From Isoetes taiwanensis (lineage: Eukaryota > Streptophyta > Lycopodiopsida > Isoetales > Isoetaceae): a stretch of DNA of 64,000 nt. The stretch is from positions 5,380,563 to 5,444,562 of the forward strand of contig JAJEKV010000020.1 in the NCBI GenBank assembly GCA_021234155.1, written 5' to 3'. Made by a program: the position numbers and the translations under genes. Positions 8,176-52,598 of this stretch are shown piece by piece. Below the pieces are notes generated by a model that was not told where the DNA came from, made no database searches, and worked only from the letters and a program-made list of their open reading frames with translations. Every line of letters starts with the position of its first letter. The stretch's first letter is position 1.

Positions 8176-8254
8176 GGCTAAACAGTACCAGTCCAATTGG
8201 ATCAAATCTAATGGCAGCAAAAGGAGAATTGAGAAAAAAAGATAGCAGAGGCTT

Positions 8255-9022: not shown

Positions 9023-9615
9023 GTTACAAGTGGACATTGGGGATGAGCAGAATGGAAACAAATGCAATTCAGTTTTGGTTCAGGACATAGAGGCAAATAA
9101 GGGAAGTGTCAATGCAGTTAATACAGTTAATGAAAGTATGACAACAAATGAGTCAGCAGCAACTTCTCAACGTGCTTGGCCGCAGACAACTCCAGAGTGT
9201 ACTCCAACTTTCATGGGTGACAAGGATGCAAATGACACAATTCCCAGGCAAGATCTACACCAACCTTCCATGTTTAATTGAAATTAATGGTAATTCTTTA
9301 GTGAAGACCTCTGAATCTAGCCCTGTTTGCTGTCAATCCAAATTTTGGACTTGCCCCCACTCTAATGAATATGAATTTGCTGAAAAAGAAAATTTCCTGG
9401 AAAATGACCATTCTGTTTTCACAAATTCCTGGGAAGATGACCACTTCTTATCTCTTTCCAATCCTGAGACATATGATCCAAAAAATGTGGCTTGTATGGA
9501 CACTCCAGCTTCTAATACCATACATCAATCCAAGAGATCTACCAGAAGTCAATCCAAAAAATTTTTTTTAGTGCTTCTCACCTGCTATTTTCTTCCTTCT
9601 TGTCAATCTTCCTTC

Positions 9616-12600: not shown

Positions 12601-13459
12601 ATATGGTTCAATGGCAGATGGATGACTTGGACTAGATTCAAATCCATTATTAATGGAACCTCTTCTGACAAGGTTTTATTTAAACATATTGTTAGTAAAG
12701 TTTCCAACCTCAGTCTTCATAATGCTGTCTCAGCTAGGATTGACTGGCATCACAGAGATAAGAATATCTACAAAGTTGCTAATATTTACAAGTCTTTGGC
12801 CAACATAAATCAATCATCTAAAGCTTGCCTCTATTGGAATCTTTCTGTTGACACTGGAAATGCTCTTTTTTAGAAACGTGTGGAATTCTCACTGTGCTCC
12901 AAAAATCCCATACTTCATTTGGTTGCTTGCTAACAAAAGCATTCCAAATATGGAGACCCTATCTAGACATCACCTGCCAGCTAATGATCCTAATAATTCT
13001 GCCATAAGTTCTTTATGCCCCTTGAAGAGTAATGGCATTGAGGACATTGAGCATATTTTTAATTGTCCTAAGATATCTAGCTTCTGGAATTGGTTTCAGC
13101 AGGTTTTCAACATCAGGAAGCAAGGGAGTATTGTTAGTTTTATTATGACTGATAACAAATTTAAAAATTCAATCTCCTTTATTGCTTTATGGAATATTTG
13201 GAAACACAGAAATAGATGTTTGCATGGGGGACATAATCCTTCTCCTCTTTGGATCAAATGGCAAGTTATTTTTGATATTGAGCTCACTGCTACTGCACAC
13301 AAATTCAGAAATTGTGGTCTTCAAATAGATAATAATTGGCTTACAGTTGGGAATTTTACTGGCTTTTATGGTTCTTTTAAACTTTTCTGTAATCAATCAT
13401 TATCTAATATTGAACCCGTTGATGCTAGATTATCTGAGGAGCTGCAAGCACAAGTTTAA
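9616..13459 (+). pseudogene. LINE-A ORF2: AP endonuclease, reverse transcriptase, zinc domain
   Basis: The protein begins MKIMTWNLRG, the first motif of the APE-type endonuclease, followed by GDFNNTP, LDRFYIS and SDHQP. The reverse transcriptase follows with RPISLTNSTYK, LDFSKAFDTV and GVRQGCPLAPYLF. The YADD catalytic box expected near 11,730 is destroyed: the sequence reads LLQYIHLAFF. The C-terminal region has a Cys/His cluster with HIFNCPKISSFW, typical of the zf-RVT domain. Stops or frame changes occur at 9790, about 10,330, 10,965, 11,415 and 11,790. It is a dead copy. Domain assignments rest on well-conserved motifs. Confidence 0.85.
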
Positions 13460-24915: not shown

Positions 24916-27900
24916 CGTAGGGGGAAGCTATGATGATGTTTTTTAGTTGCATTTAAACTTTATCATAGTTAGTGATTTGGTATTCATCATAACCTCGTTA
25001 TGCAATTTTAAGGTATGATAAATGCGCAGATTTGATGCCATGCATGCTTCAAAAGCTCAGAGTAGCAGAATTTAAGAAGTAAGAACATGCTTTGCTTGAT
25101 TGATCAAAGTAAGTTTTGTTAATTGTAAAAATTCTAATTTGTTGGGTTGTCTCACTACTTATGCGTGCTATAAAAACTCAGCAAGTCTTAAACTGATATA
25201 CTCTTGTAGAACAAGCTGTCTACTATTATTAGGATTATTAGTAAGTGGATGTAATGCTAATGAAATGCTAAATGCTGAACATACTCTTTTTGGGGCTATT
25301 ATTATAAGTACAAACAAGGATTAATTGTTTTTTGACATGAACTCTCAAGGCAAGTTAAATGATATAAGAACTCTTACTGGAATTTCATATATTTCTGAAA
25401 AATTCGAAGATTTTTAAAGATTTTAAAGATTTTTAAGGTTTTTTAAGGTTTTTAAAGATTTTTAAAGATTTTTTAAAATAAAAAACGTTTTTAAAGTTTT
25501 TTTTTAAATTTTTTAAAAAACCTCAAAAAATCTTTAAAAACGTACGAAACCTGTACGGATTTTGACGTACGTGACAACCTTGCACACAATTCCTCATTCT
25601 GCTTAACCTTATCAATTATGAGATCATATGTCTTCTTATCCAGCTCTGAGCCTTTGGTTACCATTGCAATCTCCTCCCATTTTTTCCATGATGTTTCTCC
25701 ACATCTCAAATCACCAATTTTCCTGATTTCTACATTATGCCATTGCATATATTTCTGTGGATGTTTGAGAGCCAAACAATCGTTGTTACTATTTATTACC
25801 CCGGGGTGCTAGAAAAAATGAATGTCCTTAATTTTGGCATCAAGGATTGGAGGCCTATAACATAGTGCTGCAGAATTCCAAGCTTGAAACATTCTTTTTA
25901 GCACATTAGATGTATTTGAACATGGATTAAATTGAAAGAAGGCTGAATCTGGAAGTTCATGTCTTAGACTATGGCTGCCTACTGGATATGACTCCTGTAT
26001 CCAATATTTGATCAATTTCATTGCAGGGGATGGGGAGGAATTATGAATAGCTCTCCATACCATCTTAGCAGAAAGTGCCTGGGCCTGAGTGAATAAGTCC
26101 TTACATCCGAGTCCTCCCTTTTTCCTAGATTTGGTAAGGTCACCCCAGGCTACTTTGTGGACTCCTTGCCAGATGAACTGCCTGATAGCTGCCTCAATCT
26201 TACTGTAGGAGGCCCGTATCCCCCACTATTACAGACGAGAAATAAATATGTGTGCTACTGATCACTGCATTAGCAATCTGCACTCTGCCAGCTAAAGAAA
26301 GAGATGAAGAATACATACTTAATTTCCTTTTTATCTTGGTAATGATTGGGTCCCATAAACTTCGGAGAGAGGAATTCAAAGCTAGAGGGATCCAAGAATT
26401 GATGTACCTTCATTCCTGTTGAGAATTTTGATGCCCTGTATTTCAGTGTCCTGTGTGTCTAGGATAATTACACATTTGTTCTTGTTTAGCATGACACCAG
26501 ATATGTGGCAAAATCTTTCCATCACCGTAAGAAAATTTGAAAGGCTATTATCTTCCTGTTTTAGGAAAAACAAAGGTATCATCAGCATACTGCATCAGGG
26601 AGAAAGTACCTTCACTACCTGGCAACTTCAGACAATTGATGCCTCCCTTCTCTTGCATGTGAATTACCAATTTGGTAACCATCTCTGCTACAATTAGGAA
26701 GAGGTATGGGGCTAGGGGGCATCCTTGCCTCACACCTCTTCTGCACGGGAATTGATCTGTAGGAGTGCCATTAATTATGATTGCAGATGAGGCCATCATG
26801 TTTAATTCAAAAACTTTTTGATATATCCTTTCTAATAGCCCCAAGTGAGCCATTGCCTTTTCTAAGAACTGCCAACTGATAGTGTCATATGCCCTCTTAA
26901 AATCCAGTTTAAGGAGCATGCATCTCTGGCTAGATAATTTATTCCAATGAAGTCCTTCAGTTGCACCAATGTAATTGTCCAGGATGTTCCTCTGAGGGAG
27001 GAAAGCTGACTGGCATGGACTGATTACCTTCATTAGACTCATTTTTAGTCTATTAGCTAGAATCTTGGCGAATAGCTTATAGGTAGTATTGGTGAGAGAG
27101 ATTGGTCTCCAATCACCAAAGTTTGCAGGATTTTCGACCTTGGGTATGAGGGTAATGTGTCCTGCATTAATGGCTGGGTGCAGGTACTTGGCTCTCCATG
27201 CTCCTTGGATGAATAAGGTGAGGTCCTCTTTCATTAATTCCCAGAATTCCATGTAAAATTCAGGCTGAAGTCCATCTGGACCTGGACTTTTCCCATGTGC
27301 CATAGATTGGAGAGTCTCCTTAATCTCCTTTTCATCTGGGACTATGAGCATTTCCCCTGAGCACCTTTGGGTATTTCTGCAAAGAATTTTTCTATTTCCT
27401 CCTCATTGACCTATAGCTGCTAAAAAGGTTCTTATACTCATTAAGAAAGAAATTCTGAATTTCTAGTTGGCTGTCCAAGATCTTACCATCATTCCCTTTA
27501 ACCTGAATGATCCCATTGTTTAGGATTCTACTCTTGGCAATCCTAAAGAAAAAGGCTGAACCTGCATCATCCATCTCATTGATATATTTGCATCTGCTTT
27601 TCACTGCTAGACTTTTTGCCTCAGCTTCCTCAATACTTTTGACTTTAGATTCCAATTCAAATTCTTTTTCCTGCCATGTTATGTTATCTATATCCTGGAA
27701 AAGATTCTTCCTTATTTCTCTCATTGCTTCATAGACTTCCTGTTTCTCCTTACTTTTCTTAATATTCTATTCTTTTCCCCATTCCTTAATCCAACCCTTC
27801 ACCTGCTTAATCTTCTAAACAAAGAGGTTCATGGATTCAGTGAAGGGGATTTTAGGAAGTTGGCTATAAAATTCTGAGAAGGACTCACAAAAACTTCTGT

Positions 27901-30880: not shown

Positions 30881-32793
30881 CAAAGCGTGGAAAAACATAT
30901 GCGTTCTAGAGGCTGTGTCTGCATCCACCGCCACAGCCGTGAAGCCTGCTACATATGCTATCTCTTAAACTTCCATTTCAGTTATTTCTGCCGAGGATTC
31001 CAGTTATTTCGCAGATACTTCAGCGTCTTGCCGAGCAAAGGAGCTGCCAACAGGGGAGTTGCATACAACAGAGGACCATTAATTTCTAGTAACCTTAATC
31101 TCTATTGCAAATAGCTTGTCGCGAACTAAAGATTTCAATTTTCGAGGAAGCATAGACTATTGAAATCGAAAGCTATAAACAAAGAGGGCATCTTTTCTGT
31201 GTTAATGGGGAGCAATAAATAGCTGAAATCGAAGTAGTGGAGAGTTAGGGCTTGAATTAATTCAACAGAAAGAAGATTTGGCTCTGCTTTTGCCGTCTAT
31301 TTGTCTGATTTGAATGGCCGAGATAAAAAATGATGAATGCAGATACCCCCAAACCTGTAAAGCATGCCACAGTTTGCCCTGCTGCTACTTGCAAGCCAAA
31401 CAAAAGACAACACCCCATTTTGCAAGTTAAATTCTTCAATCCACCAGAGTTGGAGAGTCTTTTCCTTGGGCAACAAGTTACACAATGCAAAGTGTGCAAA
31501 AATAGAACTTTACGGAGTTGAGAGACAATCTGGCATGGTGAGAGAAACTGAGCCAACATGTTTTCAGGAAAAATAAAATGGCTTCAAAGATGCATGCACT
31601 ATATATTTCAAACGAATAAAGTGTGCGATGACGTATGGAAACACATGTAATTTAATGTTTAACATGTTCTTACAACGAAATTTTGTGGGTGTAATGGTAA
31701 AAAATATTCTACAACATCCAAATAATCTAGGATATGCACCCATTTGCCTGCCTCACTAACTCGAACTTGAGGCCATGCAGATTTTGACAAGATGGACATG
31801 ACCTATTTCATTCTATGGAGGTGATGCACATTTTGAGCAGAAGGACATTACTTATTCCATTCTAATTTCTAAACAAGTCCACAAAGTGAATTGTGACATT
31901 AAAGAGACCAACAATATTAGAAGGTATATCTACGTCAAGAAATTTAGATATCATCACAATTGTTTTACCCTCACGATATCAAACTTGCTATCCAACAAAT
32001 TAGTGATTACTATAAACAAGCGCAAGAAGAAAAGAAGGAAAATTCACAAACCACAATTCCCTACTATATTGATGCACATAATTAAATCCAATATGGCTTG
32101 AGCTATTAAGAACGCAATAGCAATTAAATCCAACTTGGCTTGAGCTGATAGAAACACAATAGCCGATACCAACCCCCTAACAAAGTGTTTGAATATGCAC
32201 TTCCCACAAATATGGAAAGAGTCTCCAACCATGGAAAAAAAGTGCATATTCTCCTCCAAAGGGTGTCAAACCTTAACTTTTGCATCGAGTATCTTATATA
32301 CCTGGTGGACCAAAGGAGTTCAAAATTATGTCTATCAGCTTATTTTTGCTCTCTTTCAATACATATATAAGTCAGGTACATTTGTTTCGCACCCCTAATT
32401 AGACTTCATGAATATCAGGAAAAATACAGCAATGCCTCCTTTCATTGCAGACAAATGAGGCAGCCGAATTAAATTAAAAGTCACTAGGACCTTGTAACAA
32501 AACAATTAGCCCATAGGAAGAGCATTAAACAGAGCCATGCATAAGATCCATCAGAAAAAAGCTTTAGAAAACGATCAGAGAACATGTAGTCAATCATGTA
32601 CTGTAAATCTCATGTAGAAAAAGGATACCATGTGAGCTGCATTTACCTCTCTTTATTTTCTTCGCATTAAGGCACCATACCTGACAATACTTAACTTCGA
32701 ATTTCCCTAGCATTCCAAAATTCCAAATAATTACACATGCCACGAACACATTGTTGCTTACGTCCTTTTGATAGCAAAGACAGATACCAAATT
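30881..32793. other. Non-coding, minor tandem duplications
   Basis: No gene recognised. A unit of about 44 bp containing TTAAATCCAA and GGCTTGAGCT is duplicated at 32,083-32,165. Confidence 0.4.
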
Positions 32794-32951
32794 CTTTTCA
32801 CTTACGGGAAGCATGACATAAATTGGAATGTAAGGAGTGCCTGCAAAGTTACGCTCAGGCTCCTTGGCCTTTCTTTTCACTTACGGGAAGCATGACATAA
32901 ATTGGAATGTAAGGAGTGCCTGCAAAGTTACGCTCAGGCTCCTTGGCCTTG
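32794..32951. repeat. Tandem duplication of 79 bp, essentially identical copies
   Basis: The unit starting CTTTTCACTTACGGGAAGCA occupies 32,794-32,872 and 32,873-32,951 with no difference seen apart from the last base. It lies just outside the left end of the 12-kb TIR element. Identity implies very recent origin or an assembly artefact. Confidence 0.85.
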
Positions 32952-33009
32952 TGTTCATTCTGAGAAATGCATGCCACCAAACAAATAAGAATGACATTCT
33001 TCAACTTCC

Positions 33010-33034
33010 AAGTCGTATTTAATTAAAGTGGGAC
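33010..33034 (+). repeat. Left terminal inverted repeat
   Basis: Perfect inverted match to 45,171-45,195 over 25 bp. TTCC precedes it. GGGAC recurs at 33,030, 33,049 and 33,072, as would suit transposase binding sites. Confidence 0.85.
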
Positions 33035-33205
33035 AAATCTTGAATTTTGGGACTCGGACTGAAAATGGGACTCACACACCATAAAAGAAATTTCTGAATT
33101 GATTGCTTGAATAGAATTACACATGACACACATAGAATTGGGTTACTTGTTTTCCTCATAAATTTTACAAACTACTAGTTGAGATAGTTTTCAAACTTCT
33201 CAATA

Positions 33206-35736
33206 TTATGTGCCCTCATACAATGATATAGCATGGAGGTTGCTCATGGCCTTGTCCATCTCCCTTCTTGGGATCTTGTGTGTGTTGTCCTTTGCAACGT
33301 GAGAACTTGGATATGACCATACCACACACTCCACCAATTCCCTCCTTTGAGGGTCAGCATAATTTGCCCTCCACTTCTTCTCCCAGTGATCGGTGTATTG
33401 CTCCTTCAAGTTGCCCTTCTTGTGTCTCCCAATGGGCTCCCAATATTGAATTTGGAATCCAGGACTAACTCCTCTCCATCGAGGGCATAGTGGTGGTTAC
33501 ATCAGAGAGTGCCACCCCTAACCATATTGGACAGTCCTCATCATCAGGCCTTACTAGCACAAAGTATCCTTCCTTGATGTCCTCAAAGGGATCCCACTCA
33601 GGAAGATCAAACCACTTCGGCTTTGAGGCCTTACTTCCCACAAACCACTTGGAACCCTTGTTGGGACCCAAGTGAGCATTCTTAGACGTGCTTGCACCTT
33701 GAGAACCCTCCCATCTTGACTCGGCAAGAACCCGTCTCTTAGCTCCCTCCCACATGGTCATTCGGTTTCCAAGCATGTCACAACTTTCTCCCAGTACTTG
33801 ATTAGGGAGTCCATTTGATTTTTCTTAAGAGTGGAGGTGTGCTTTCCATTTCGAACATCATCCCAGTGTGTTATGTAATCCTTGATGCCCTTCACCAGTT
33901 GGCTAGAGTCTTTGACTGTCTTGAAGGGAGGTAGTGGTTTTGGTTGCCCTTTAGGAATGAGAACTTCACCAGTGAAACACCCCTTTGCCACAACTTCGAT
34001 ACCTTGTACAGGCATCCACAACTTGTCACCTGGTCTCCACTTATATTGCATGATTGGTATTCCATCCCTAACCCAAAACTTGAACTGAAGTGGCTTTGTG
34101 TGTCCTGTCAACTGGTCCTTACCATCTAGCAAGTATCCTTCTACAAATGATTTCAAATCTGCAACCTCATCCATCAAGAAAGCCATTGGGTTGGGGTCAA
34201 TGCAGCTCTCAAACACATCCATTAGTTCAGGGAGAGTGGTCACGTTTTCTCTCTTGAGCTTGGTGGAGAAAGTTCCAAAGAATCCATCTATATCATCATG
34301 CGTATGCCCAACCATCATGAATCCCACTTTCACAACTTTGAATACTCCCACTGCTGTCAAGTATGACATTGCCCCAAACATCCATCTATTCTTGTTTTCT
34401 TTCCAACAGTTGTCCAACTGAACACATAGCTCCTCAGGCAGTGATTTCTCAAGTAAGGGGAAATCATCCCAAGTCCTCCTTGATTCACTAGACACCTTGG
34501 ATGTGAGCTTTTTTATCTGCCTTTGGTAACAAAGCGGTTGATCATCCATCAAAGCCTCAAAATGGGTCTTTGAAGGGGAATACCTCCTCCCTTCTATCGA
34601 TCCTTTCTCTAGTGTTCTCGGGCACTTGAAAATAGAGCTCACATGGAAGTTTGGATCATCTCCATAGATCAAGCACAAAATGACCATATGTTCCAGTTCC
34701 ATGACCATGTGTTAATACACCCTTGGACTTATTTTTTCTCGAAAAGCGTTTTGACAACGCTTGGGTAAAGGATCTAGCTTTGGCAAGAAAGTCTTGTGTT
34801 GGTCCATCTTATCATGAATTATACACAAAAATTTGTCATTTGCATCTCGAGAAAATGTTCTCCACGCCAATACAACTGTCTACATGATATTTGGTCCCTT
34901 TGGTGATCTCGCAAATTGCTCCCTAATTGCCATTCTTTCTTTCTCTATTGCAGTTGATGCAAGTGTATCCTTGAGTTGAATGCAAGTGTTGCACTTTGAG
35001 AATGGCATGTGTTGTAGGACACTCACGTCCGAGAAGTGAGTGCTCCATAACTTCTTGAAATGTGATTGAGAAAGAGGCCTACCTCCAAGTAGTTTCTAGG
35101 ATGGAGTTGACCTCCTTAAGGCACTCCTTCGGATATAGTGTTGTGGCAACACTCTTTTGCACCACTCGCACACCGTGCTCGTTCACCTTCGACTTGTGAG
35201 GCATAGATTGAGACATGTATCTCACAAAGCTCTCGAAGACTGCAATGGCATTTAGAGTATTTGCTCTAGTTTTCAAAGTGAGTGCATTACCATGTTGGAA
35301 CAAAGTGTGCCCTTTTTAACCTTGCCCAAAGATCGTAAAATGAAGACTTGCTCACCCCAAGAATCCATCTCAATACTCTCATACATACCTTCATGCCCCT
35401 CAATTGATATAGTAGACGTCCTGTGTTTTCATCATAGCTGGAATTCCTACACAAGGAGTAAATGAAATTAATCCTATCTTTTTGAAGTCTGTCCAATGTA
35501 TTGGGACCTTATCCGCATCGAGGTCATCCACATTGTATGCGCCTTGTGCAATCTAGGTTGCAACACTCTTGTCCCCTAATTGCCTCCAGGTTTTCTTTGG
35601 TTGGTGCCATACTTTCCATCCTTTCTAAATATTTGTCACTTCTAGGCCTCTTGGGCACCTTTGGCTGCCTTTTATGAAAGACATAGCGTCTCTTCCTTGT
35701 GATCAAAGGATGCTCATCGACCACCAAATCTTCCAC
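33206..35736 (-). pseudogene. DUF7869-type putative DDE transposase, decayed
   Basis: Reading leftward: an N-terminal cysteine motif ECCNLDCTRRIQCG (near 35,540); VCMRVLRWILGVSKSSFYDL (about 35,400-35,330), a helix-turn-helix-like segment; MDQHKTFLAKA (near 34,810); QLDNCWKENKNRWMFG (about 34,420-34,370); VGHTHDDIDGFFGTFSTKLK (about 34,310-34,250), the hallmark of the family; WRPGDKLWMP; then C-terminal PIWLGVAL and QYTDHWEKKW, ending at 33,206. The spaced Asp residues in MDQ, LDN and HDDID suit a DDE-type nuclease, though that role is inferred. The largest open piece is 34,708-33,758. Frame changes occur near 35,500, 35,300, 34,710, 33,760 and 33,465. Position next to the left inverted repeat supports a transposase role. 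Confidence 0.6.
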
Positions 35737-36169
35737 ATGGCCTTGGGTGGGCCTTGGGGTGTGTAGTTCAAGTGGGGCAATCTAGAGTATCACCATTCTT
35801 GTATGTAATATATCTAATTGGCCATCTCAACCGAGCTTGGGACTCCAGCAGCCACCGAGCACACAATGCAATCACTAGAGCTTCCACAGGACATGATTGT
35901 ATCAACCCGATAAGAAGCTTCACAATGCCAACTCCAAGATGTTCATCTCCCAGCCTCTCATCATTCACACTATCAAATGGATCAACTGCAGGTTATTATA
36001 CCCTCTGCAAATACCGATAAAGTTGCAAGGGTGCAACAAAAGGCAACCCATCTTCCTCCATTGGAGCCTAGGGCAATGGCCTCCTTTGGACTTCCCCGGC
36101 TCCATTTTACTCATCTCACATGTTCCCCGAATGAAAAAGCTCACATTAAAACCATATATAGCCCCAAAC
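35737..36169. other. Region upstream of the transposase gene
   Basis: A minus-strand frame at 35,968-35,768 (LLIGLIQSCPVEALVIALCA and onward) lies in the right place to be the N-terminus of the transposase, but I recognise no domain. Confidence 0.3.
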
Positions 36170-36420
36170 ACCACAAATATGACCATATGAACCATATAAA
36201 ACCATACAAACATATTAAATATAATCATATTAAATCATACAACCATATTAACTAAAAATCATACAACCATATTAACTAAAATCATATAACCATATTAAAG
36301 CATACAACCACACTCATTCTAAACCATATGTAAACATTGTAAACATATATAACCATTGAAACTATTCAACCATTGAAACCTTATTAAATACATAAGATAA
36401 CATATATAAACATATAACCT
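36170..36420. repeat. AT-rich degenerate tandem repeat
   Basis: ACCATATTAA and ATCATACAACC motifs alternate many times across 250 bp. This marks the border between the transposase region and the GC-richer cargo block. Confidence 0.65.
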
Positions 36421-36578
36421 ACCCTTTCATATCTTGTCATGTCCACGCAAGCCTCTTCAGAGGCTGAAACCGTGGCCATGTCAACAATCCAAGACCGCCA
36501 TCGTCATGGAGGGCATGGCCCACACGTGACAATGGTTTTATTATTGCACTTTTACGAGGGTTCGAGGGTGTGTAATTA

Positions 36579-36821
36579 ATGCGCACCCTCTTCCTCTCCC
36601 CGACCATTCTTCCTCCCCCGTTTTTCTCCGATCACTCATCCTCCCCTGTTTCCTTAGGGCCAGCTTTTACCGATCAGGCGATCGTCGAGCCGAAGCGATT
36701 CCAAGGCCATCTTATGACAGCGGCTTTGGTCGACGGATCGGGGCGCCCAGCCGTAGAAGTTCTCGCCAGATTCATTGTTCGAGAGGCGTTCTACTTTGAG
36801 AAGAAAGTGAGGCCCTTTTAG
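36579..36821 (+). CDS. Hypothetical 80-residue ORF in the cargo block
   Basis: ATG-started and uninterrupted. The second half (EPKRFQGHLMTAALVDGSGR, then EVLARFIVREAFYFEKKV) has ordinary protein composition, while the first half is Ser/Pro-rich. No family is recognised. It could be the first exon of a longer gene, since an intron-like pyrimidine-rich stretch follows to about 37,198. Confidence 0.3.
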   Translation: MRTLFLSPTILPPPFFSDHSSSPVSLGPAFTDQAIVEPKRFQGHLMTAALVDGSGRPAVEVLARFIVREAFYFEKKVRPF

Positions 36822-37468
36822 TGCTGCTTTTAGTTTTACGTAAGTCCTTTAGTGCATTTTACTTATATTACATTTGTTAGAGCTCTTATTGATCCCGATA
36901 CAATTTATACCGAGAAATCCTTATTCACGCTTTGCCAACGACTATACCCACATGGAAGGCGAACTTCGGAAGCCTCCTCCTCATCCGGCAAATCTTCCGG
37001 GTATGTTTTGTAATATCATACCCCTTTTTAATCTCATTTCTGCATCTTTGTTCTCCTTTGTTCTCGTACTCTTCTCCTTTGTTCTCTGTTTTCTCATTGA
37101 TCTCACTAATCTCAGACATTATCCGTTTTCCCTTTGTATTGTTTTTCTACATTTTTGTTATCTTTTTTCTTGCTTGTGGTTGAATTGAATACATTGTAGG
37201 TGCACAAGTGAGAATAGTGGTTAGAGTAGTAGCAAGCAACCCGAGATAGAAATCATCGAGACCGGTGTTAGGAACTAAGATATTGCGAGCATTAATGAGA
37301 ACATAACTAGGAATGTCTTTCTCCCAAAGAAGAACTAAGAATAGGAATTGCTTCACAGAATCTCCATTTCTAACTCACGGCAAATCCACTGCGGCAGAGA
37401 CATGCGAAGGGAGTGGCGAAGTTGGGAATACTTCAGCTTGCCAGCAGTCCCAAGTCGGGGCCTTCTTC

Positions 37469-38554
37469 TCTCGACTCTTCATGCGAAGTCGAGAACTTCC
37501 CCGACTTCAGCGAGGCGCAGAAGAGGGAGTGTACACTCGGACTGTTGGCGGTTGAGGGATTCTCGACTTCGCGATTCGGGATTGCACGCCTACCCAATGT
37601 CTTCACATTCTTTAGAACCCTGCTGCGACCTTCTCGACTCGTGAGTCGAGAATGTGATACCCTCGCCAATGGCTCTTTGTGCGGTCGCGGTGCCTCCACC
37701 GATCGAGCCACTCTCTTCCGAACCATGCTCATCGAATATTGCGAAGAGGGTGGCTCCGCGGGTGGAGGTCATTTGACTAAACCGTGCGAGTTCTGGCGGC
37801 GCTTTCTCGACTTCGTGAGTCGGAAAGCATGAGCTCTAGTGCACTCTAGAAAATGCGGAACAGCGATCTTAACCACTCTCCTTCTATCTTCCTCCGGACA
37901 TTGCGAAGGAAGTGGTTTTCCTTGTCGCAGGCCAACTCTTAGCAACCAATTCTCACATTATTGTGTGGCGGTGGCCTCTACCCAATCAAAGGCCGTCTCC
38001 TTGAACCATCTTCGTCCGAATATTGCGAAGGGGATGGGCTACGATTGGGTGGAGGCTTCGGCTGACTAACCACTGAAGGTGCTGGCAGCTTTTCGACTTC
38101 ATTGAGTGAAAGCTGGCAGTGCGATACACTCTAGAGCTGGCGCAGCCGGTCTTAACAACTCTCCTTCTATCTTCCCTCGGACATTAAGGGAAGTTGTTTT
38201 GGACTGCGCAGGGCTCCTAGCAACCCAGGGGAAACCCACGAAGCTTTGTATGCATTCTCGGCTCGCGATGAGAATGCCTTACCCAACCGGCACTCCATGT
38301 GTACCATCAGGAGTTTCGATGGCTAAGGCATTCTCGACTTTTGGTCGAGAATATGAATATCTGAAGCCAACTCAACCTCGCCTGAGAAACCATAGAGCTT
38401 CTTTGTCTGCATTCTCGCCTCGCGAAGTCGGGAATGCCTTAACCAGCGGGCACTCGTGTGTACTACCGGAAGTTCGGATGGCCAAGGCATTTCGACTTGC
38501 GAGTCGAGACAAATGACCAATAATGTCGCATTCTCGACTCGCAAGTCGAGAATC
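37469..38554. repeat. Palindrome cluster 1 (ten copies)
   Basis: Copies of a palindrome with core TCTCGACT-loop-AGTCGAGA lie at 37,469-37,494; 37,559-37,582; 37,631-37,652; 37,801-37,828; 38,087-38,114; 38,252-38,277; 38,330-38,352; 38,409-38,437; 38,489-38,515 and 38,528-38,554. The outer bases differ between copies yet remain paired: GCTTTC with GAAAGC at 37,801, GCATTCTCG with its complement at 38,252, TTCTCG with CGAGAA at 37,631. The loop is usually CGCG, CGTG or GCA. Copies at 38,252-38,352 and 38,409-38,515 belong to a duplicated unit of about 160 bp. Confidence 0.85.
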
Positions 38555-38854
38555 CCTTAGCCAGCCAATTCTTCTGTGTATGGTAGCAGTGGCCTCGACC
38601 CAGTCAGAGTCACTCTCCTTCGAACCATCTTCGTCGAGTATTGCGGGGGAGGGGCTCCTGGGGTGGAGGGGCCTCTACAACTAACCACAGGGAAACCACG
38701 AGAGAGAGGAAGCCAAGGCTTGCATTCTCTACAAATCTTGCACTTTCTATTCTCCTTTTTTAGTCCCAAGTGCCTCTAGCCTGTCTGAGCCACTCTCCTT
38801 CGAACCATCTTCCTCGAATATTGCGAAGAGGAGTGGTTCGGACAGGGTGGAGGC
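37692..38854. repeat. Six long hairpins with a conserved loop
   Basis: Positions: 37,692-37,769; 37,863-37,928; 37,974-38,056; 38,140-38,209; 38,591-38,671; 38,772-38,854. Each has imperfect arms of 22-30 bp. The loop region is near CGAACCATCTTC followed by TCGAATATTGC, and is shortened in copies 2 and 4. The left arm of copy 6 (CTGTCTGAGCCACTC) faces GAGTGGTTCGGACAG. Copy 4 has AACAACTC facing GAAGTTGTT where copies 1, 2 and 6 have a CCACTC arm facing GAGTGG or near, so arm changes are paired. Short palindromes of the other family sit between them. Confidence 0.8.
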
Positions 38855-38878
38855 CCCTCCATCCTTGCCGAGCATCTC

Positions 38879-39124
38879 TCAACCCAGAGAGTAAATCATC
38901 TCTCGAAGCTGAAAAATGCTGGACAAGGAAACGATGAATCCGTCGAGCTTATCGCCGGTTCCATTATTTAAAACACATACGGCATGTTCTACAAGCGAAA
39001 TAACATAGGCATCTCTCAAACTCACCTCTTCACGCTTAGTAATTCCTTGGGCCATCAGTATCACGGATCCCGCAGCCTCACCTAGAGTCTTTGCTTCTTC
39101 GGCCGGTCTCTTCAAGAGTGTATT
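38879..39124 (-). CDS. Hypothetical partial ORF, minus strand
   Basis: The frame reads KRPAEEAKTLGEAAGSVILM, then REEVSLRDAYVISLVEHAVC, and ends REMIYSLG. It has the helical, mixed composition of a real protein. It is closed upstream by TGA near 39,127 and lacks an ATG, so it is probably a last exon or a truncated gene. Its stop lies 25 bp from the sixth long hairpin, which would fit a hairpin at a 3' end. No family is recognised. Confidence 0.35.
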   Translation of the reverse strand, partial: NTLLKRPAEEAKTLGEAAGSVILMAQGITKREEVSLRDAYVISLVEHAVCVLNNGTGDKLDGFIVSLSSIFQLREMIYSLG

Positions 39125-40093
39125 TCAGATCTAATACTTGTATCAACTGCGATTCTCGCGTATCCCCGATTCCATGGCGCCGAAGGTGTAGAGTTCAGGT
39201 GTCCGGCGGCTCCTCTCCGCTTCCTACCTTAGCTCCGTGCTCATCGATCAAATCAAGCGCTTGCATAGGACGGGCGGTCGGGGGAAAAACACATATGCAA
39301 ACATTGTTAGCGACTTACAGCGTCATGGCGCCATTCAGGAAGTCGCTAACGGTCGATGCTCCCCTCGAACTCGAGGTCCTTAATGCCGAGGGGAAGATAA
39401 ACCACGCTCCGCTCACTTAGTCCCTTGATGTGATTAAATTTGAAATAGTGTTTGGGCGGGCTAAAAAGCCGTACCGTCTTTGTACTTTATAGCCAGCTTC
39501 TTTTCATAAATGATTGCATGTCCTTAACTTCAAATTAAAGAACACGCCGGGATCTTTTTACATGCAGTCCTAAAACTCACAACGCGGAGGAGACTTAATT
39601 TCTGAGAGGGGTCAGAAGAGGATGAGAGGGCATAAAGACATGACTGGCCCAAGAAGCTTAGGCCGGAGGGGATGCTTCTACCGGCCGGCAAGAAGAAGAA
39701 GAAGACAAACACCCCGGTGAGCTCGAGGTTTTTCTTTTGTCGGAATACCTTAATCGATCCATCCTTTCTTCTTGCGGCATTCACCTCGGACTCTTTGGTG
39801 ATCAGCGGCGAACTCCATTCTTCGTCATCGAGGGATCGAGAGATGAGCTTCTTGAAACAAAGAAGCAGATTCTTGGTGGTATGTCGAGGTATCGACAAGT
39901 GGGAAGGAGAAAGATCTGTTTCTACACCAAAGGGACAAGAAGAGCTCCGGAGACAAGTACAAGAAAATCGGTGTTGTGCTCTCCGTCTCTGCGCCAGATT
40001 CAAAGCATTTAACACTACATGTCGAGGACTGCCAGAAGAGTAAGTTCTATCACACCAAAAAATTAGCAGTTGCAAATTATTCTCACTCTTCCA
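39125..40093. other. Cargo-block segment with decayed frames
   Basis: Overlapping plus-strand frames between 39,670 and 40,090 (for example KQILGGMSRYRQVGRRKICF, then KSKFYHTKKLAVANYSH) look protein-like but change frame repeatedly. They may be the N-terminal part of the ORF that starts at 40,094. Confidence 0.35.
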
Positions 40094-40930
40094 TGAGCAA
40101 GGCGAAGGGCACCGAAAAAAGGCAGGCACCTTTAAATTGTCAGAACCTTGGGTGGAAGGATCTGGAAGGGATGAAGGAGGCCGGAACCCTAACATCCAGG
40201 GAGCTTGGTATGGAGATTTCCAGAGTCAGGGAAAAACTGTTCAATATGGGGAGCTTCACTTCTACTGTGCTGAAGACTCTACAACACTCTGCAGTGGGGA
40301 ATGAAGTTGTGGTTCATACACAAAAAAGTCCACCAAAAAACAAAGATGGGGATGATGACACCACACGGGAGGAATCAGATGACGAAGGAGACGAAGATAT
40401 GGTCGAGTCCCCAAACCTCGATCCAGATGAGCAGATCAGGATTTCACAGAGAGGGGCACAGAAAATGGAGCGTCTAGCTCAGTATTATCCGTTGGGAATA
40501 TCACACAAGCTCTTTCTTTGGACATTAGGCTATTTGAAGGTTTGCGGGGAGATGCCGTCTTGTTCAACCCGAGGGGAATTTAATCCGGCACACATGCCGG
40601 AGATTCTAAACCGATGGTGCGACATCCTCGCTGCAGATCCAATGCCTGCGGATGTCATACCTTTTAACGTGATCGACCCGGTGAGCTGTTCAATTTGGAA
40701 GTCCGAGGAAGATCGAAGGGAAAAGACGCCCGGTTCGGGTTGTAGGCGGCCGCAAGATTCGCGTGAGGGCGGCGCCAAGTATTGCAGCGAGGAGAAGGAG
40801 GTGCCGCAGCGATCAAGGATAGATATGCAAGCGAGAGTGCAGAGTTCTTTTTGGCGGAGACGCCAAAGAACCTAACCGCCAGCATTAGCCACCGCCGTAA
40901 CACAATAGCGAAAAGTGCCCCACGTGAAGG
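40094..40930 (+). pseudogene. Cargo ORF X1, acidic-linker protein of unknown family
   Basis: From MSKAKGTEKRQAP at 40,094 the frame is open to about 40,710. It includes an N-terminal helical part (GMKEAGTLTSRELGMEISRV), an acidic linker rich in Asp and Glu (about residues 85-120), then QRGAQKMERLAQYYPLGISH and MPEILNRWCDILAADPMPAD. Near 40,715 the frame shifts, and a plausible C-terminus, YASESAEFFLAETPKNL ending SAPREGK, continues in another frame to about 40,930. The first palindrome of cluster 2 starts 23 bp later. I do not recognise a domain. Confidence 0.45.
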
Positions 40931-40952
40931 TAAATAACTCTGAATCTTTCCA

Positions 40953-41333
40953 TTCTCGACTCGCGAAGTCGAGAAAGCCCCCTACCATCCTAACATTTTC
41001 CGATTATCATTTGGGGTTTTCTCCATTTCGGAAAGTCGAAAGCCAAGGTACTGAAAAATCAAAGGATGTAGAGCTTTCGACTCGCGAAATGAGAAAACCC
41101 GAATAAGTAAAAAGAAAATTAGGCGTTCAAGGGACTTTCATTTCGAAGTCGAAAGCCCTACCATCCTAACATTTTCCGATTATCATCGGGTTTCGACTTC
41201 GCGAGTCGAAAGCGTGGGTAAATACGTAAAATCAAAGGATGCAGAGCTTTTCGACTTCGCGAGTCGAGAAAACCCGATAAGTAAAAAGAAAATTAGGCGT
41301 TCAAAGGGACTTTCACTCGCGAGTCGAGAAAAC
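40953..41333. repeat. Palindrome cluster 2 (six copies in two tandem units)
   Basis: Copies lie at 40,953-40,977; 41,073-41,097; 41,135-41,156; 41,191-41,212; 41,246-41,273 and 41,310-41,333. The stretch from about 40,980 to 41,156 is tandemly repeated at about 41,157-41,333 (both begin CTACCATCCTAACATTTTCC). The palindrome at 41,191 has arms TTTCGACT/AGTCGAAA, lacking the same dinucleotide on both sides compared with TTTCTCGACT/AGTCGAGAAA elsewhere. The cluster fills the space between ORF X1 and ORF X2. Confidence 0.85.
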
Positions 41334-41379
41334 CCGGCTACTATTTCTTGTTTATTGCGGGTTTTGTAGATGCTTTCAT

Positions 41380-42890
41380 GCTCGACATTGGTGCATTGAT
41401 GAATGCAGCCCTTATCGACAGATCATACACGCTAGGCAAAATGGAAAGCATTGGGTTGTCCTCAGCGTCCTAAAGGAAACAGGGCTCCCTCGGATAAGTG
41501 GAAGACCTTTGAGAAACTATGCAGATATGTTCTGCTGGAGGGACAGGAAGATGATGAGGGAGAGGAAGAAGAGGAGAAGAAGAAGAGAACACCAAGGAAA
41601 GGCAGGGAGTCTCTCTCAGACCAATATGACCTCATTCTTAGCAATCGAGGCGCCCGGGAGAATTGGACTGAGATATGGGCTCAATGGACAAGAGGCAAGC
41701 TGAAGGATAGCAATGGAGAATTTCCCTCCAGGCCGGACCCCAAGTTGTTTGACAAGCAGTTCATGAAGAGGATACAGGGCCTCACGGACAAAGAAACGCT
41801 TGACCTGCAAGGCAGAATCTTGGATGGAACAATCCTGCTAAGGAAGACTAGGAGTTCTAAAATGCAGGACGCAAAGGATTATGCCACAGTCCTAAAGCGA
41901 CAGCGTGCGTTAGAAGAAGGCATCACGGAGTTCTGCAACGTTGCATCTAATAAATACCATGACTTTGATTTTTACAAGGAAAAGGCTGCCCTTGATGAGG
42001 AAGACATGAAGATATTGAATCGTCTATGTCAACCCTACATCAACACGAAGCTGAAGCGTAACGTCAAAACCCTTCCTTTCCCTGAACGTGCTATGGCAAT
42101 TCTGAAGAGGAAGCTTGGATTCGGGGTGGTCCCATTTAAGGCCGACGATAGCTCCCCCCCATTTCTGGTAACCTTGGAACACAAGGGATTTGGTGGTCTG
42201 GAACTGGCACCTGGACCAGTGGCACTATTTGTCATCAATATGATCGAAGACCCCACCCTTTTTTATGACAAAGCCGACATAGAGCAAATTGGTACAAGGC
42301 GAACGGACATGAACGACACGGATACTTTCGGTTTCCTTGTCTTTTGCATGCCGGGCAATCGGACAACCGCCGTCTCCCAATGGGCGGTGATATTAACTTC
42401 ACCAACAAGATCATGTACTCCATATCTGAACTTGATCATGAGTGTAGACTTGGCTTGTCAAGGCACCAAGCTTTGCCAACATAGTTTTGGTTTTGATTTC
42501 AAGATCGGCTGTAGACCCGGATAAGTGGTGGTCTAGCGAGCATCATTATCTCGACAGTTCATGATCTCTCAAGAGCGGATGGAACCCCGGAAGGGGGCAG
42601 ATTTATGGAGGATGTTCCATCGATGGACAAGGTCAGCAAAGATGGTGCGACAGGGTCCTATACATAGAATTCCTATCCGCCAAGAGTTATCAAGTACTTC
42701 ATAACCAGCCCGGTCGAGGAAGATCAAATTGTATGCGAAAGTGGTACATGAATGGCCCGTTTCTCTCGGGGCTATCTTTGTTTGGAATGAAACCTATATC
42801 CGTGGTTGGAAATAAGGACATGGTTGAAACCATTCGGTCATACCGGATCCGCTTCATGAGCATTTCAAGGGACGAAGACAAATGGAAGCG
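41380..42890 (+). pseudogene. Cargo ORF X2, unknown family
   Basis: A likely N-terminus, MLDIGALMNAALIDRSYTLG (from about 41,380), leads after one frame change near 41,455 into a long open frame. That frame has a Lys/Glu-rich stretch (EDDEGEEEEEKKKR), ENWTEIWAQWTRGKL, DKQFMKRIQGLTDKETLDLQ, EDMKILNRLCQPYINTKLK and PFPERAMAILKRKLGFGVV, open to about 42,340. Further pieces in other frames (MNGPFLSGLSLFGMKPISVV and SYRIRFMSISRDEDKWKR, to about 42,890) look like the C-terminus. I find no known domain. With X1 it shares an acidic, Lys-rich character. At least three indels break it. Confidence 0.45.
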
Positions 42891-43021
42891 ATAAAGACGG
42901 CGAGGGGACGAGGGAGACCAAGGCGACGTGAGGCGTGATTGTCGAAGGTTTAGACAAGGATCTTTGCCGAACACATTCTTGAGAATCTGAGATTGAGGTG
43001 AGTTTACTTTGCTCTATCGGT

Positions 43022-43104
43022 GTTTCTCGACTCGCGAGTCGAGAAAACTCGTTTCCTTTCAATACCTTTTTCTTTTCATTCTCGACTCGCGAGTCGAGAA
43101 AACT
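43022..43104. repeat. Palindrome cluster 3 (two copies, tandem)
   Basis: Two near-identical palindromes at 43,022-43,048 and 43,078-43,104, cores TTCTCGACT CGCG AGTCGAGAA, each followed by AACTCGTTTCCTTTC. They are a 56-58 bp tandem duplication, located between ORF X2 and the FCP1-like ORF. Confidence 0.9.
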
Positions 43105-43267
43105 CGTTTCCTTTCTGACAGATGTCATCATTTCGGGGAGTTCCATGTCAACGACTCCGGATCATTGTCATTGGATACCGGCGGTTCACGTCGCGAGGAG
43201 GAGAGTGCACTCCACAAAGACAATCGAGCAAGACACCGCTCCGCGCCCGAAAAGGACCAAAAGATAA

Positions 43268-43978
43268 TGATCCCGCATTTGGATCCCGATGAACCGGAAA
43301 TATGGTCAGAGCCAAACTCCAACTGGGATCCAGCTGGTCCCGCCAAGCTTGTAATATTTGACGTCAATGGAGTATTAGCTGCAGTATACCACGATAAAGA
43401 CGTCCCCGAGATTCACACCTCGCAGATCCCAGAACGGAGCATAAAATAGTGTATCCGAGGCCTAGAGCTAAGGAAATTATTGAATGGTGCATTGAGCGGG
43501 ATTGAAGTGGGCATATGGTCTTGTATGGCAAAGAAAAATATTGTCAATGTTCTTGGTGTTCTCGGCATTTCAGTTTTGAAGTTCAAGTTCGCTTGGGGAA
43601 GCGAAGGGTCGAAAGCATGTGTCGGACCTCGATCCAGCCATCACAAAGGGGAAGCCTATAATGGTGAAAAGGCTGGACAGGGTTTATGAGCAATTCCAGG
43701 ACTATGGCAAACACAACACGCTGATCATAGACGACTCCGCCTACAAGTGCTATCATAACGCGCAAAATACAATCATTGCTAAGCCATATCGACCTGAAGA
43801 ATATGAGACGGATAGGTGGTTGTCCTTCGGACTGTGTCCTGTCTTGGCGGAATCCCTCTTTGCCATTCTTGTCGCCGATGTGATTAGGAACTATCCGAGC
43901 CTCACGGAACCCGATCCAGAGAGCAAGGCGATCATGAAAGCTATGGACGACAAATATTTTGGTGAACAAGAAGAGTGA
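43268..43978 (+). pseudogene. FCP1/NIF-like HAD-family protein
   Basis: The order of motifs is that of the FCP1 homology (NIF) domain of the HAD superfamily: VIFDVNGVLA (motif I, near 43,350), VGIWSCMAKKNI (motif II, near 43,495), then DLDPAITKGKPIMVKRLDRV, and NTLIIDDSAYKC (motif III, near 43,715-43,750). In FCP1 phosphatases motif I is DxDxT/V. Here the second Asp is Asn, as in a plant subfamily reading DLNGVL, so ordinary aspartyl-phosphatase chemistry is doubtful. A TAG at 43,447-43,449 and a frame change near 43,610 interrupt it. The ATG at 43,268 is one possible start; the upstream frame is open to 43,009 across both palindromes. The natural stop is 43,976-43,978. Confidence 0.6.
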
Positions 43979-44075
43979 CCTCTGCTTTCGGATAGTCAAA
44001 TTGTGTGAATATTGTAAACAAACGTGAAATGTATTGAACATTTTGTAATGAATATACTTGTATATTGAGTTTTCG

Positions 44076-44287
44076 ATGCCTTTCTCGACTCACGAGTCGA
44101 GAAAGGCATGCTTGTCCTGTTGATGAGACCATTTGTATGTTTGATTGTGTGACTGGATGCAGCCACAATGTATTATGATGATGCTTCTACGTTGCGTTTC
44201 CTGGGCCTTTCTCGACTCGCGAGTCGAGAAAGGCACTGGTTGTACTTTCACTTTTATGGGCCTTTCTCGACTCGCGAGTCGAGAAAG
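44076..44287. repeat. Palindrome cluster 4 (three copies)
   Basis: 44,076-44,109 has perfect 15-bp arms, ATGCCTTTCTCGACT, around CACG. 44,205-44,234 is a perfect 30-bp palindrome with half-site GCCTTTCTCGACTCG. 44,262-44,287 is a 26-bp perfect palindrome. They follow the FCP1-like ORF, the first starting 98 bp after its stop. Confidence 0.95.
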
Positions 44288-44414
44288 ACACTACTTCCGT
44301 CATTGGATGCGGTTGTATGGAATGAATGTTCTCCATTGTAATTTGATTTCAACATTCTTTTCTTCGTTTTGACTAATGGCACCGTGAATTGTTAATCATA
44401 CTCTCCTTGCTCCG

Positions 44415-44666
44415 GTGGTTCGTGCACAGATCCGACACCAAAGAGATCATCTTCGGGCATCACAGACCGCTCCAGCGGTAATGCATCCCGCCAAGGCGGA
44501 AGAAATACCGTTCGCACGCATCCAGGGCCACGCTACACTCTTGCCCGCCCTTTGGGATAAGGTTGCTCGGGAATTCGAGAGGTTGCTCGCTACACCACGG
44601 GATAAAGAACGGCGAAGAACAAAGAGAAAGTCCAGAAGCTCAAAGCATCTTGCAAGCATTGCATAA
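44415..44666 (+). CDS. Hypothetical ORF X4
   Basis: Open frame rich in Arg, Ala and Lys (HPAKAEEIPFARIQGHATLL, VAREFERLLATPRDKERRRT). It has no known domain. A related frame may continue past 44,666 after an indel (STEVGEGAYSMEGAGRRKW). It follows palindrome cluster 4, continuing the alternation of ORF and palindromes. Confidence 0.3.
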   Translation: MVRAQIRHQRDHLRASQTAPAVMHPAKAEEIPFARIQGHATLLPALWDKVAREFERLLATPRDKERRRTKRKSRSSKHLASIA

Positions 44667-45170
44667 CATCCACGGAGGTTGGGGAAGGAGCATATTCGAT
44701 GGAAGGTGCGGGGAGGCGAAAGTGGAGAAGTCGGGTGGACAGGTCGGCCGGTAGCTCCAGAGGCACCTCCACGTGAGGCATTCCACACCCTTCGGGTTGC
44801 CCCAAAGGCTTACAAATGGGCGTGAAGAAGCCGCTAGTTAATCCCCTAAGGTGGACCACCTATGAAGATGATGTAATCAGTAGTGACAAAGAAGACCACC
44901 ATGGTCTCGCATCCGATGTAAAATACATTGTACTGTTCAATTTATTAATAAAATTCTTTTTCAACTAGATCTTTGGTTTCAAACTTTAATGAATTTCCTT
45001 TGTTTCAGCTTGCATTGTTCTTGTTCTCGACTCGCTAACTGTGAGAAAACTGCAAACAAAGCTTGAATGCGTAGTTTTATTCAAAAATTCAATTAAGGAT
45101 AGTTTTCGGCCTGGGGTGCTCCTTTTTGTGTAAATTAACAGGGTTCTAGGAAAAAGTGGGAATGGAATGA

Positions 45171-45195
45171 GTCCCACTTTAATTAAATACGACTT
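45171..45195 (-). repeat. Right terminal inverted repeat
   Basis: Exact reverse complement of 33,010-33,034. TTCC follows at 45,196-45,199. A degenerate palindrome copy (TTCTCGACTCG...GTGAGAA, about 45,023-45,050) lies just inside it. Confidence 0.85.
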
Positions 45196-45199
45196 TTCC

Positions 45200-51036: not shown

Positions 51037-52598
51037 ATGGCGCCTAACTCCAAGGTTCACATTCTTGCCATTCCATTTCCAAATCAGGGAAATCTGAATG
51101 CTATGATGCATCTCTGCAAATATCTTGCAAATCAAGGCTTTACCATCACTCTTGCAACAATAGAAAGCATCCATCATAATATGAAGACCTTGTGGTCTCC
51201 AAAATCAGAGCACGACATACGCCTCCATCCTCTTGCATTCAACTGGCGCCCTCTTCCTACCGGATCTGATCATCATGTTTTTGACAATTTGGCGTCTTAT
51301 TTCAATGCAATGCTGGAGGAATCCTTCCAGAAGCAGCTGGAGGATCTGGTAACAAAATTGAGTCCCAAAGTCTCCCTTATTCTCTCAGACTATTTTATGT
51401 CTGTTACACAAAAAGTGGCAGCAAAGTGCAAAGTAGAGCGAGTGTTACTCTGGTCTGGGTCTGCAGCCTGGAGCTTGGTTGAATATCATGCCCCTTTGAT
51501 CCATGAAAATGGGGATCTTCCATCTAAAGGTAATTTTCACTTTGTGAATTTGTATTTGTTAACTCTGGCTTTGTATTTGATATTTTGTATTTGGTCCTAA
51601 AATTTGTATTTGATATTTAGTATTTTGTATTTTGTATTTGGTATTTGGTATTTGGTATTTTATATTTGGTTTTTGGTGCTAAAATTTGAAGTTTTCATAC
51701 AGGAGATGACGGTCTCATTTCTTACATCCCCGGCATAGAACATCTATATGCCAAAGATCTGCCTATATATTATCGTGTAGCAGATCATGCCTTCATAGAA
51801 ACCATACTCAATAGATCTCCAACGGTCAAAGACGCATCTTGGGTTCTTGTTAATTCTGTCTACGACTTGGAATCCAAAACATTTGATTTTATGAGAAGTG
51901 AAATTGGTGACAACTATGTTGCAGTAGGTCCTTTGTTACATCTTGACCAACATGACGATGGTAAGATCGGAGTTACTCTGAGGCCTGAATGTGACCAGTC
52001 TTTGAAATGGCTAGATGCACACAAGCCTAATTCTGTGCTATACATATCATTTGGTGGTATACATAGTTTGACTGATCTAGAGAGCCAGGAAATATGTGCA
52101 GGATTGGAAGCTTGTGGCGTGCCATTTTTGTGGGCTACAGATGAAGATAATCAGGCATGTGAAGTTTATAGAAATTTTAGCAAGAAAATGGAACACAAGG
52201 GGAAGCTTACTTCATGGGTTGCCCAGCCAAAGGTGCTTGCTCATCCTTCCATTGGTGCATATTTAACTAAAGGCGGTTGGAACTCCATATTGGAGAGTAT
52301 TTATGCAGGTGTGCCTCTCGTAGTTTGGCCTTTCCATGTTGAGCAAAACTTAAATGCTAAGCTTGTTTGTGAGGACTGGGAAATTGGGCTAAGATTAAAG
52401 GAGAAACCCCACCAAGAGTTGGGAAGAAGTTTGGAGAGAGCAGTGAATGAAATTATGGGGGAAGAGGGAAAGAAACTGAGAGAAAATGTGAAGCTACTTC
52501 AAATGAAAGCCAAAGAGAGCATCACTGAAAAGGAAGGGGGCTCCTCTTCCCTAGCTAATATACATAAGTTTGTGGAGTATTTAGAGAATCTTGTGTAG
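51037..52598 (+). CDS. Family-1 UDP-glycosyltransferase (UGT), two exons
   Basis: Exon 1 is 51,037-51,529 and exon 2 is 51,703-52,598. The intron starts AAAG|GTAATT and ends CATACAG|GAG, phase 1, giving 462 residues, a normal UGT length. Plant UGTs move a sugar from a UDP-sugar to small molecules in the cytosol. The PSPG box is exactly 44 residues (336-379), from WVAQPKVLAH to WPFHVEQ, with the sugar-contacting Glu378-Gln379 kept. Two key residues are altered. The catalytic His of the N-terminal QGH motif is Asn19 (PFPNQGNL). The phosphate-binding His of THCGWNS is Lys354 (LTKGGWNS). Asp118, likely the partner Asp, is present. The intact frame, good splice sites and TATA box argue for a functional gene, but activity as an ordinary O-glucosyltransferase is doubtful. 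The acceptor cannot be predicted. Confidence 0.9.

Follow-up and report, generated by a model that had tools for sequence, protein, structure and literature searches.

The 64,000-nucleotide window of Isoetes taiwanensis DNA analysed here (assembly GCA_021234155.1, contig JAJEKV010000020.1) holds, at positions 33,010 to 45,195, a 12,186-bp DNA transposon bounded by perfect 25-bp terminal inverted repeats (TIRs) and a 4-bp target-site duplication. We consider it highly probable that this element belongs to a multi-copy family of cut-and-paste transposons of about 12 kb, which combine a putative DUF7869-type transposase with a predicted accessory gene kept under selection. The target-site duplications across the family are varied and lean towards A and T, and the full-size copies bring the second gene with them.

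A single insertion with defined ends

The outermost stretches of the element (33010-33034 and 45171-45195) are complementary at 25 of 25 positions and are separated by 12,136 nucleotides, an arrangement whose chance expectation in about 14.5 kb is estimated at about 1e-7. TTCC stands directly outside each of them (33006-33009 and 45196-45199), exactly as an earlier note on this DNA had proposed. The same note had suggested a search for empty sites, and these are present elsewhere in the genome: when the window flanks are joined with a single TTCC, they match C1052:6174371-6174627 at 95% and C907:16765526-16765784 at 87%, in both cases over positions 1-258 of 260 and in alignments that run through the joint (C-names denote pieces of the assembly). 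The filled window site matches the joined flanks in two segments (1-110 and 107-260) that overlap in TTCC and lie 12,186 bp apart. The copy on C523 agrees, since its flanks, once joined, have seven matches of 94-97% identity spanning 1-255 or 1-260, and at its filled site the match is broken in two, about 12.2 kb apart. All these empty sites are paralogous rather than allelic. Because the joined flanks match uninterrupted sequence elsewhere, the whole block is one insertion event, and the 25-bp inverted repeats with TTCC bound one inserted transposon; perfect TIRs and a target-site duplication, both absent from the empty sites, are what characterises a TIR cut-and-paste element. The insertion site of the C523 copy looks by eye like a long interspersed nuclear element (LINE) reverse transcriptase, and a perfect 79-bp tandem duplication (32792-32950) lies 59 bp outside the left end of the window copy.

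Copies in the host genome

The host assembly searched comprises 1,658,258,908 bases in 1,110 pieces, the window being C1019:5380563-5444562. With the first 141 bp of the element as query, 40 of 40 scored places were 100% identical, figures that are biased towards good matches because only the best 40 of 1,384 first-look candidates were scored; the last 156 bp gave 39 places besides the window at 91-94% (40 scored of 1,916). Left ends of 12 copies were examined, namely that of the window and 11 others, each fetched with roughly 9-16 kb of the sequence that follows; in seven of them (window included) the right repeat is exact and the 4-bp duplication perfect. These seven duplications all differ (TTCC, TCTA, TAAT, AATT, TGTA, TACT and AAGA), and the two-ended copies measure 12,186, 12,452, 12,233, 9,325, 11,861, 5,268 and 12,220 bp. 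The earlier note had asked whether the cargo lies between these ends in other copies, and it does so in four full-size copies besides the window (C903a, C118, C907c and C523), which brings the full-size, cargo-holding copies to five. The other two, C205 and C907d, are two-ended copies with internal deletions and much of the cargo missing (positions 7036-11259 of the element are gone from the 9,325-bp copy, and only about 1-1713 and 8672-12186 remain in the 5,268-bp one). Counted by cargo sequence alone, regardless of flanking ends, the block at 36.5-44.9 kb recurs in pieces at 19 places besides the window (20 scored of 2,456 candidates).

The window and C903a copies are 99.7% identical over their first 343 bp and 89% identical over the next 5.5 kb, a difference that strong selection on the ends, or their homogenisation, might produce. 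The C907d copy (C907:6036001-6051400) sits in sequence resembling another DUF7869-type gene, with a QLDN motif recognised by eye.

A predicted three-exon accessory gene under selection

The cargo reads best as one three-exon gene, predicted to run in the opposite direction to the DUF7869 ORF and encoding an FCP1/NIF-like domain last. The features of the element, in window coordinates, are as follows.

33006-33009, no strand: left target-site duplication TTCC; a single TTCC bridges the joint in the empty-site alignments
33010-33034, plus strand: left TIR, 25 bp, the same in all 11 other fetched left ends
33465-34708, minus strand: 3' part of the putative transposase gene, broken into two open reading frames (ORFs) in different frames (33465-33776 and 33758-34708)
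34040-34450, minus strand: DUF7869 domain, profile positions 54-187 of 192 in the Pfam alignment, with QLDN and GHTHDDID motifs
36560-39800, no strand: fast-evolving spacer richer in guanine plus cytosine (GC), with palindromes at 37631, 38489 and 38531 and related direct repeats
39800-40929, plus strand: cargo exon A, whose 5' limit is approximate and whose frame is broken in the window copy; supported by tblastn with L057 pieces and by the ratio of non-synonymous to synonymous substitution rates (dN/dS)
40930-41408, plus strand: predicted intron 1, from a donor and acceptor scan, with degenerate palindromes in the window copy (C523 has 7 there within 4 mismatches)
41409-42997, plus strand: cargo exon B, with ORF 41451-42524; frame lost beyond about residue 313
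42998-43136, plus strand: predicted intron 2, with exact palindromes at 43024 and 43079 and an alternative acceptor ending at 43121
43137-43978, plus strand: cargo exon C, with the FCP1/NIF-like domain and motif DVNGVL; frame shifted in the window copy
44082-44285, no strand: three palindromes (44082, 44209 and 44264) in the 3' non-coding part
45171-45195, minus strand: right TIR, 25 bp, complementary to the left repeat
45196-45199, no strand: right target-site duplication TTCC, a copy of the left one

The GC-richer block described in the earlier note is there (0.456-0.512 in 1-kb bins at 37-45 kb versus 0.32-0.44 in most other window bins, the exceptions outside the element being 0.47-0.55 at 46-47 and 58-60 kb). 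Its description as ORFs alternating with structured repeats has to be divided: the repeats are real, but the ORFs read best as parts of one spliced gene, and the palindromes would accordingly lie in the introns and flanks of that gene and not between separate ORFs.

The donor of intron 1, AAG followed by GTAAATAACTC, is present in 10 of the 13 sequences scanned; L069 has AAG followed by GTAAACTACC, no donor was found in L067, and the region is missing from C907d. The in-frame acceptor is TGCAG in 8 of the 13 and CAG in a ninth, is altered in C907c and was not found in three. An acceptor tried earlier left exon B out of frame, and a later CAG joins it in frame. Exon B ends in GAG before GTGA, the GT being kept in 11 of 11 sequences that hold the site, and for the start of exon C there are two candidate sites in one frame, behind CATCATTTCAG and, 15 bp upstream, behind GACAG (window positions 43134-43136 are CGG where other copies have CAG). 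Spliced in this way, L057 is open from exon A through exon B into the start of exon C, up to that copy's own frameshift. From the sum of pieces of different copies, the predicted protein is estimated at roughly 1.1-1.2 thousand residues.

The exon B protein has 115 matches in the genome (114 candidates scored of 4,376), and in several copies its frame is open over 530-630 residues with no stop (for example C968, C1042:14674096, C1064, C1029:5877298 and C907:39428043); four matched regions were fetched (L057 and L067-L069). Two pieces of exon A, compared between other copies, give a dN/dS of 0.08 at dS of 0.78-1.45, and 10 pairs of five exon B sequences give 0.14-0.34 at dS up to 0.55, with the window trimmed to 280 codons and L068 to 300 in the codon alignment. 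Such alignments of open copies replaced a codon-position scan of the DNA alignment, which had yielded weak signals only. Ratios of 0.08-0.34 imply that the first two thirds of the cargo gene are kept by selection inside the transposon family; by this measure, purifying selection acts on the predicted exons A and B.

The C-terminal part is where the earlier note had seen an FCP1-like ORF, and Pfam agrees: NIF is matched by window ORF 43619-43978 on the plus strand (E 7.6e-5, 22.9 bits), by L057 (E 3e-10, 40.5 bits) and by L067 (E 7.6e-9, 35.9 bits), each above the cut-off of 21.8 bits. FCP1/NIF phosphatases share the catalytic motif DxDx(T/V). The cargo domain departs from it, reading DVNGV in L057, L067, L069 and the window, and because the second catalytic Asp is replaced by Asn, the NIF-like C-terminus is probably a binding or weak phosphatase module.

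The putative transposase

At the left end, the earlier note had placed a DUF7869-type putative transposase, and ORF 33758-34708 on the minus strand does match DUF7869 with an E-value of 4.6e-39 (Pfam). Its position, its abundance and, by eye, its D, QLDN and GHTHD motifs suggest that it is the transposase of the family, putatively of the DDE/DDD kind. All 150 scored places in the host lie above the cut-off (150 scored of 9,902 first-look candidates), and in other host DUF7869 proteins three motifs were recognised by eye, namely VIDGMDQKK, taken as the first Asp region, QLDN and GHTHDQID. The window protein is 22-27% identical to seven aligned host DUF7869 proteins, a level of identity that speaks for more than one lineage. 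DUF7869 had no match in 14 control genomes and goes unmentioned in the literature searched. No relative was confirmed in viral or prokaryote contigs, a result that is little informative because the search patterns did not cover the conserved GHTHD stretch, and comparison with the PDB, by sequence or profile, gave no significant match for the transposase, exon A, exon B or NIF (best E 0.14).

Judged on the 4-bp target-site duplication alone, which was found in 7 of 7 two-ended copies (12 left ends examined), the element is compatible with Sola. The 8-bp duplication described for Zisupton and Dileera among the KDZ (Kyakuja-Dileera-Zisupton) elements is not what we find, the duplication here being 4 bp.

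Apparent decay of the copies

Several observations weigh against a family with a working transposase and a selected accessory gene. On the transposase side, the longest ORF among the fetched copies is the window's own, at 317 codons; dN/dS is 0.43-1.28 across 23 aligned pieces, most of them with stops (one 34-residue piece without any non-synonymous change is an exception to that range), and selection on the predicted transposase is not cleanly seen. On the cargo side, the NIF part is weakly constrained (dN/dS 0.53-0.71 in three pairs), and about 7 of 11 sequences retain an acceptor for intron 2, either of two. Relative to the window, DNA identity is 89-99% in the transposase half, 83-99% in exons B-C, mostly 88-98% in exon A, with a drop to 77-89% between 40.6 and 41.0 kb, 72-83% in the bin of intron 1 and 69-92% in the spacer at 36.6-39.8 kb (C205 was excluded, as its deletion misaligns), and genes and spacers are thus not sharply told apart by this measure. 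Five of the 12 left ends are without a right repeat within the fetched stretch (up to 3 substitutions allowed): C903b and C112 had under 10 kb of element fetched, the left flank of C903b repeating that of C903a (a segmental duplication); in C907a the fetched stretch reaches N; C907b has 406 bp in common with the element and other sequence beyond; and C778 has right-hand element sequence, in which a near-perfect right repeat was not found. Lastly, one-base frameshifts are frequent.

Some of these frameshifts may be assembly errors, since nanopore reads were among the data behind the assembly (PMC8566536). As most transposase pieces in other copies contain stops and have dN/dS of 0.43-1.28, the copies look mostly decayed. 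In the window, exon B has a local frame shift near 281-293, and exon C and the transposase frame are each split between frames; judged from these frames, the window copy is dead or non-autonomous.

A working model and its alternatives

How might such an element operate? In the explanation that we favour, the DUF7869 protein would cut at the inverted repeats and join the ends to a 4-bp staggered cut, and the plus-strand gene would be an accessory gene of the transposon itself. Because the cargo gene is kept by selection between transposition rounds, it most likely helps the element to spread, and its product would, most plausibly, act on the DNA, chromatin or transcription of the element that carries it. 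As for the palindromes, they would represent a sequence class of wider occurrence, which the accessory gene tolerates, or makes use of, in its non-coding parts.

For the last of these points there is an alternative, which we regard as possible, if doubtful: the element could have evolved the palindromes as a system of its own, serving as terminators, in splicing or as binding sites. The 22-bp palindrome TTCTCGACTCGCGAGTCGAGAA has 3,678 exact sites genome-wide, and its reversed pattern has 0; the window holds seven sites (up to 3 mismatches), all within the element, versus 0 in 100 shuffles. Across ten copies, two of them incomplete, 54 sites were counted with at most 4 mismatches: 17 are in the 5' spacer, 10 in intron 1, 9 in intron 2 and 18 in the 3' part, and exons A to C and the transposase half have 0 (region limits approximate). 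Numbers per copy run from 17 in C523 down to 1 or 2. This placement speaks for such a system, but coding constraint alone could also exclude sites from exons. Moreover, when six genomic sites from among the first listed were sampled, two lay in long element matches and a third matched the intron 1 array more weakly, whereas the remaining three matched the family only over short or weak stretches, in a comparison with nine family sequences by which a divergent subfamily could go unrecognised. That half of the sampled sites barely match the family argues for a sequence class wider than the element family, and the earlier view of the hairpins as the element's own system is not upheld. In intron 1 of the C523 copy (L034, 8231-8619), seven exact palindromes stand at about 60-bp spacing; this array differs greatly between copies, and the window's sites in that intron are degenerate. 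At L071 (C18:60051-60650), five exact palindromes occupy 600 bp with only weak likeness to the transposon. Rfam gave no match in the window.

A second alternative concerns the accessory protein, which could be a fusion of ParB-like, DNA-methyltransferase-like and NIF parts that marks the element's own DNA, as proposed for Sola1-1_Ec32 of Ectocarpus; we think this unlikely. Exon A of L069 contains IPF...WVMDGQHSVRAAQ and exon B contains SPPF followed by RPRVIKYFITSLVEEDQIVCEWYMNGLFSQGA, both recognised by eye only; the gene lies opposite the transposase, with an estimated length similar to the 1,104 residues of the Ectocarpus protein; and the best local match of exon B in hhalign falls on the expected segment. 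Against this, neither exon has a significant match in Pfam, NCBIfam, PHROGs or PDB (a weak negative, as the alignments are shallow), and methyltransferase motif I would be badly altered. The exon B profile scored 17.5 against nine methyltransferases (E. coli YhdJ and eight of phages), a score reached by 79 of 200 column shuffles. Matches of exon A to 13 phage records and 2 plasmid records never did better than E 0.2, and Pfam does not identify as ParB either of the two phage proteins examined from among them; ParB_N was absent from eight phage records. On the ParB-like stretch, the Pfam families DUF6551 (E 0.23) and DUF6371 (E 0.019-0.057) stayed below their cut-offs, no stretch of the exon A and B alignments was conserved enough for scanning, and a single-sequence fold of window 41451-42395, part of exon B, was uninformative (mean predicted local distance difference test score, pLDDT, 38.7). 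A protein of the ParB plus N4C/N6A methyltransferase type is consequently not supported, a weak negative given how shallow the alignments are.

More speculative still, and rather improbable in our estimate, is a eukaryotic self-recognition system in which the accessory protein would recognise the 22-bp palindrome, mark or protect transposon DNA and couple it to transcription. Its front part would bind and modify DNA, and its tail would resemble a carboxy-terminal domain (CTD) phosphatase, with sites in non-coding stretches of its gene and at about 3,700 places in the host.

Could the cargo instead be a captured fragment of a host gene, passively carried as in Pack-MULEs? FCP1/NIF-like domains are common among eukaryotes, and the genome search with exon B is the sole search bearing on a host parent gene. 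Some giant Ectocarpus families with non-transposase genes only have been likened to Pack-MULEs (PMC12477816). Pack-type cargo is, however, unconstrained and varies between copies, whereas here all five full-size two-ended copies hold the cargo, several copies keep frames of 530-630 residues open, and the constraint on exons A and B (dN/dS 0.08-0.34) largely refutes the idea, which we deem very unlikely. Finally, the notion of two unrelated neighbouring insertions whose ends pair by chance found no supporting point, is refuted for the window and C523 copies by their empty sites and exact 4-bp duplications, and retains a negligible probability.

Surroundings of the element

Elsewhere in the window, matches to reverse transcriptase and zf-RVT at 26548-27351 (minus strand) and 12848-13459 (plus strand) are LINE-type remains near the element, and an endonuclease match at 9805-10458 is below the cut-off. 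A UDP-glycosyltransferase-like ORF (Pfam UDPGT, E 5.4e-22) lies at 51867-52598 on the plus strand.

Related elements and implications

Large DNA transposons with accessory genes occur in fungi, in amoebae and in algae of the brown, red and green groups (PMC12477816; PMC12730594; PMC3627910). In Ectocarpus, Sola-1, KDZ and EnSpm elements of 10-30 kb are described, many with extra genes (PMC12477816), so that the rarity in plants which the earlier note had ascribed to large gene-carrying DNA transposons is less than claimed outside flowering plants. Sola resembles the Isoetes element in its 4-bp duplications and short TIRs; most Sola elements measure 2-9 kb and some over 15 kb, with the moss Physcomitrella among the hosts (PMC10741241; PMC9033089; PMC3627910). 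Closest in layout is Sola1-1_Ec32 (Ectocarpus, 21.5 kb), which is likewise large and carries one long accessory gene opposite the transposase; its protein is a ParB plus N4C/N6A methyltransferase of 1,104 residues (PMC12477816), whereas that of the Isoetes element has a C-terminal NIF domain and no demonstrable ParB or methyltransferase. KDZ elements share the habit of carrying accessory genes, e.g. TET/JBP in fungi, but Zisupton and the described Dileera family make 8-bp duplications in place of the 4 bp seen here (PMC12730594). Sola2 elements with Fanzor1 in amoebae are alike in their 4-bp AT-rich duplications and in a common transposase half with an accessory gene in the rest, and differ in that this gene is a TnpB relative (PMC3627910). 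In the literature searched, supplements and Repbase apart, we found no large transposon with a DUF7869 transposase, with a NIF-ended accessory gene or with a lycophyte host.

With this family, DUF7869, an unnamed Pfam domain, is tied to elements with proven insertion sites, and many of the DUF7869 places in the host may be transposon remains. A vascular plant would join the lineages whose large transposons carry a selected accessory gene, and the many copies provide material for testing the use of such a gene, with the palindrome as a concrete candidate binding site.

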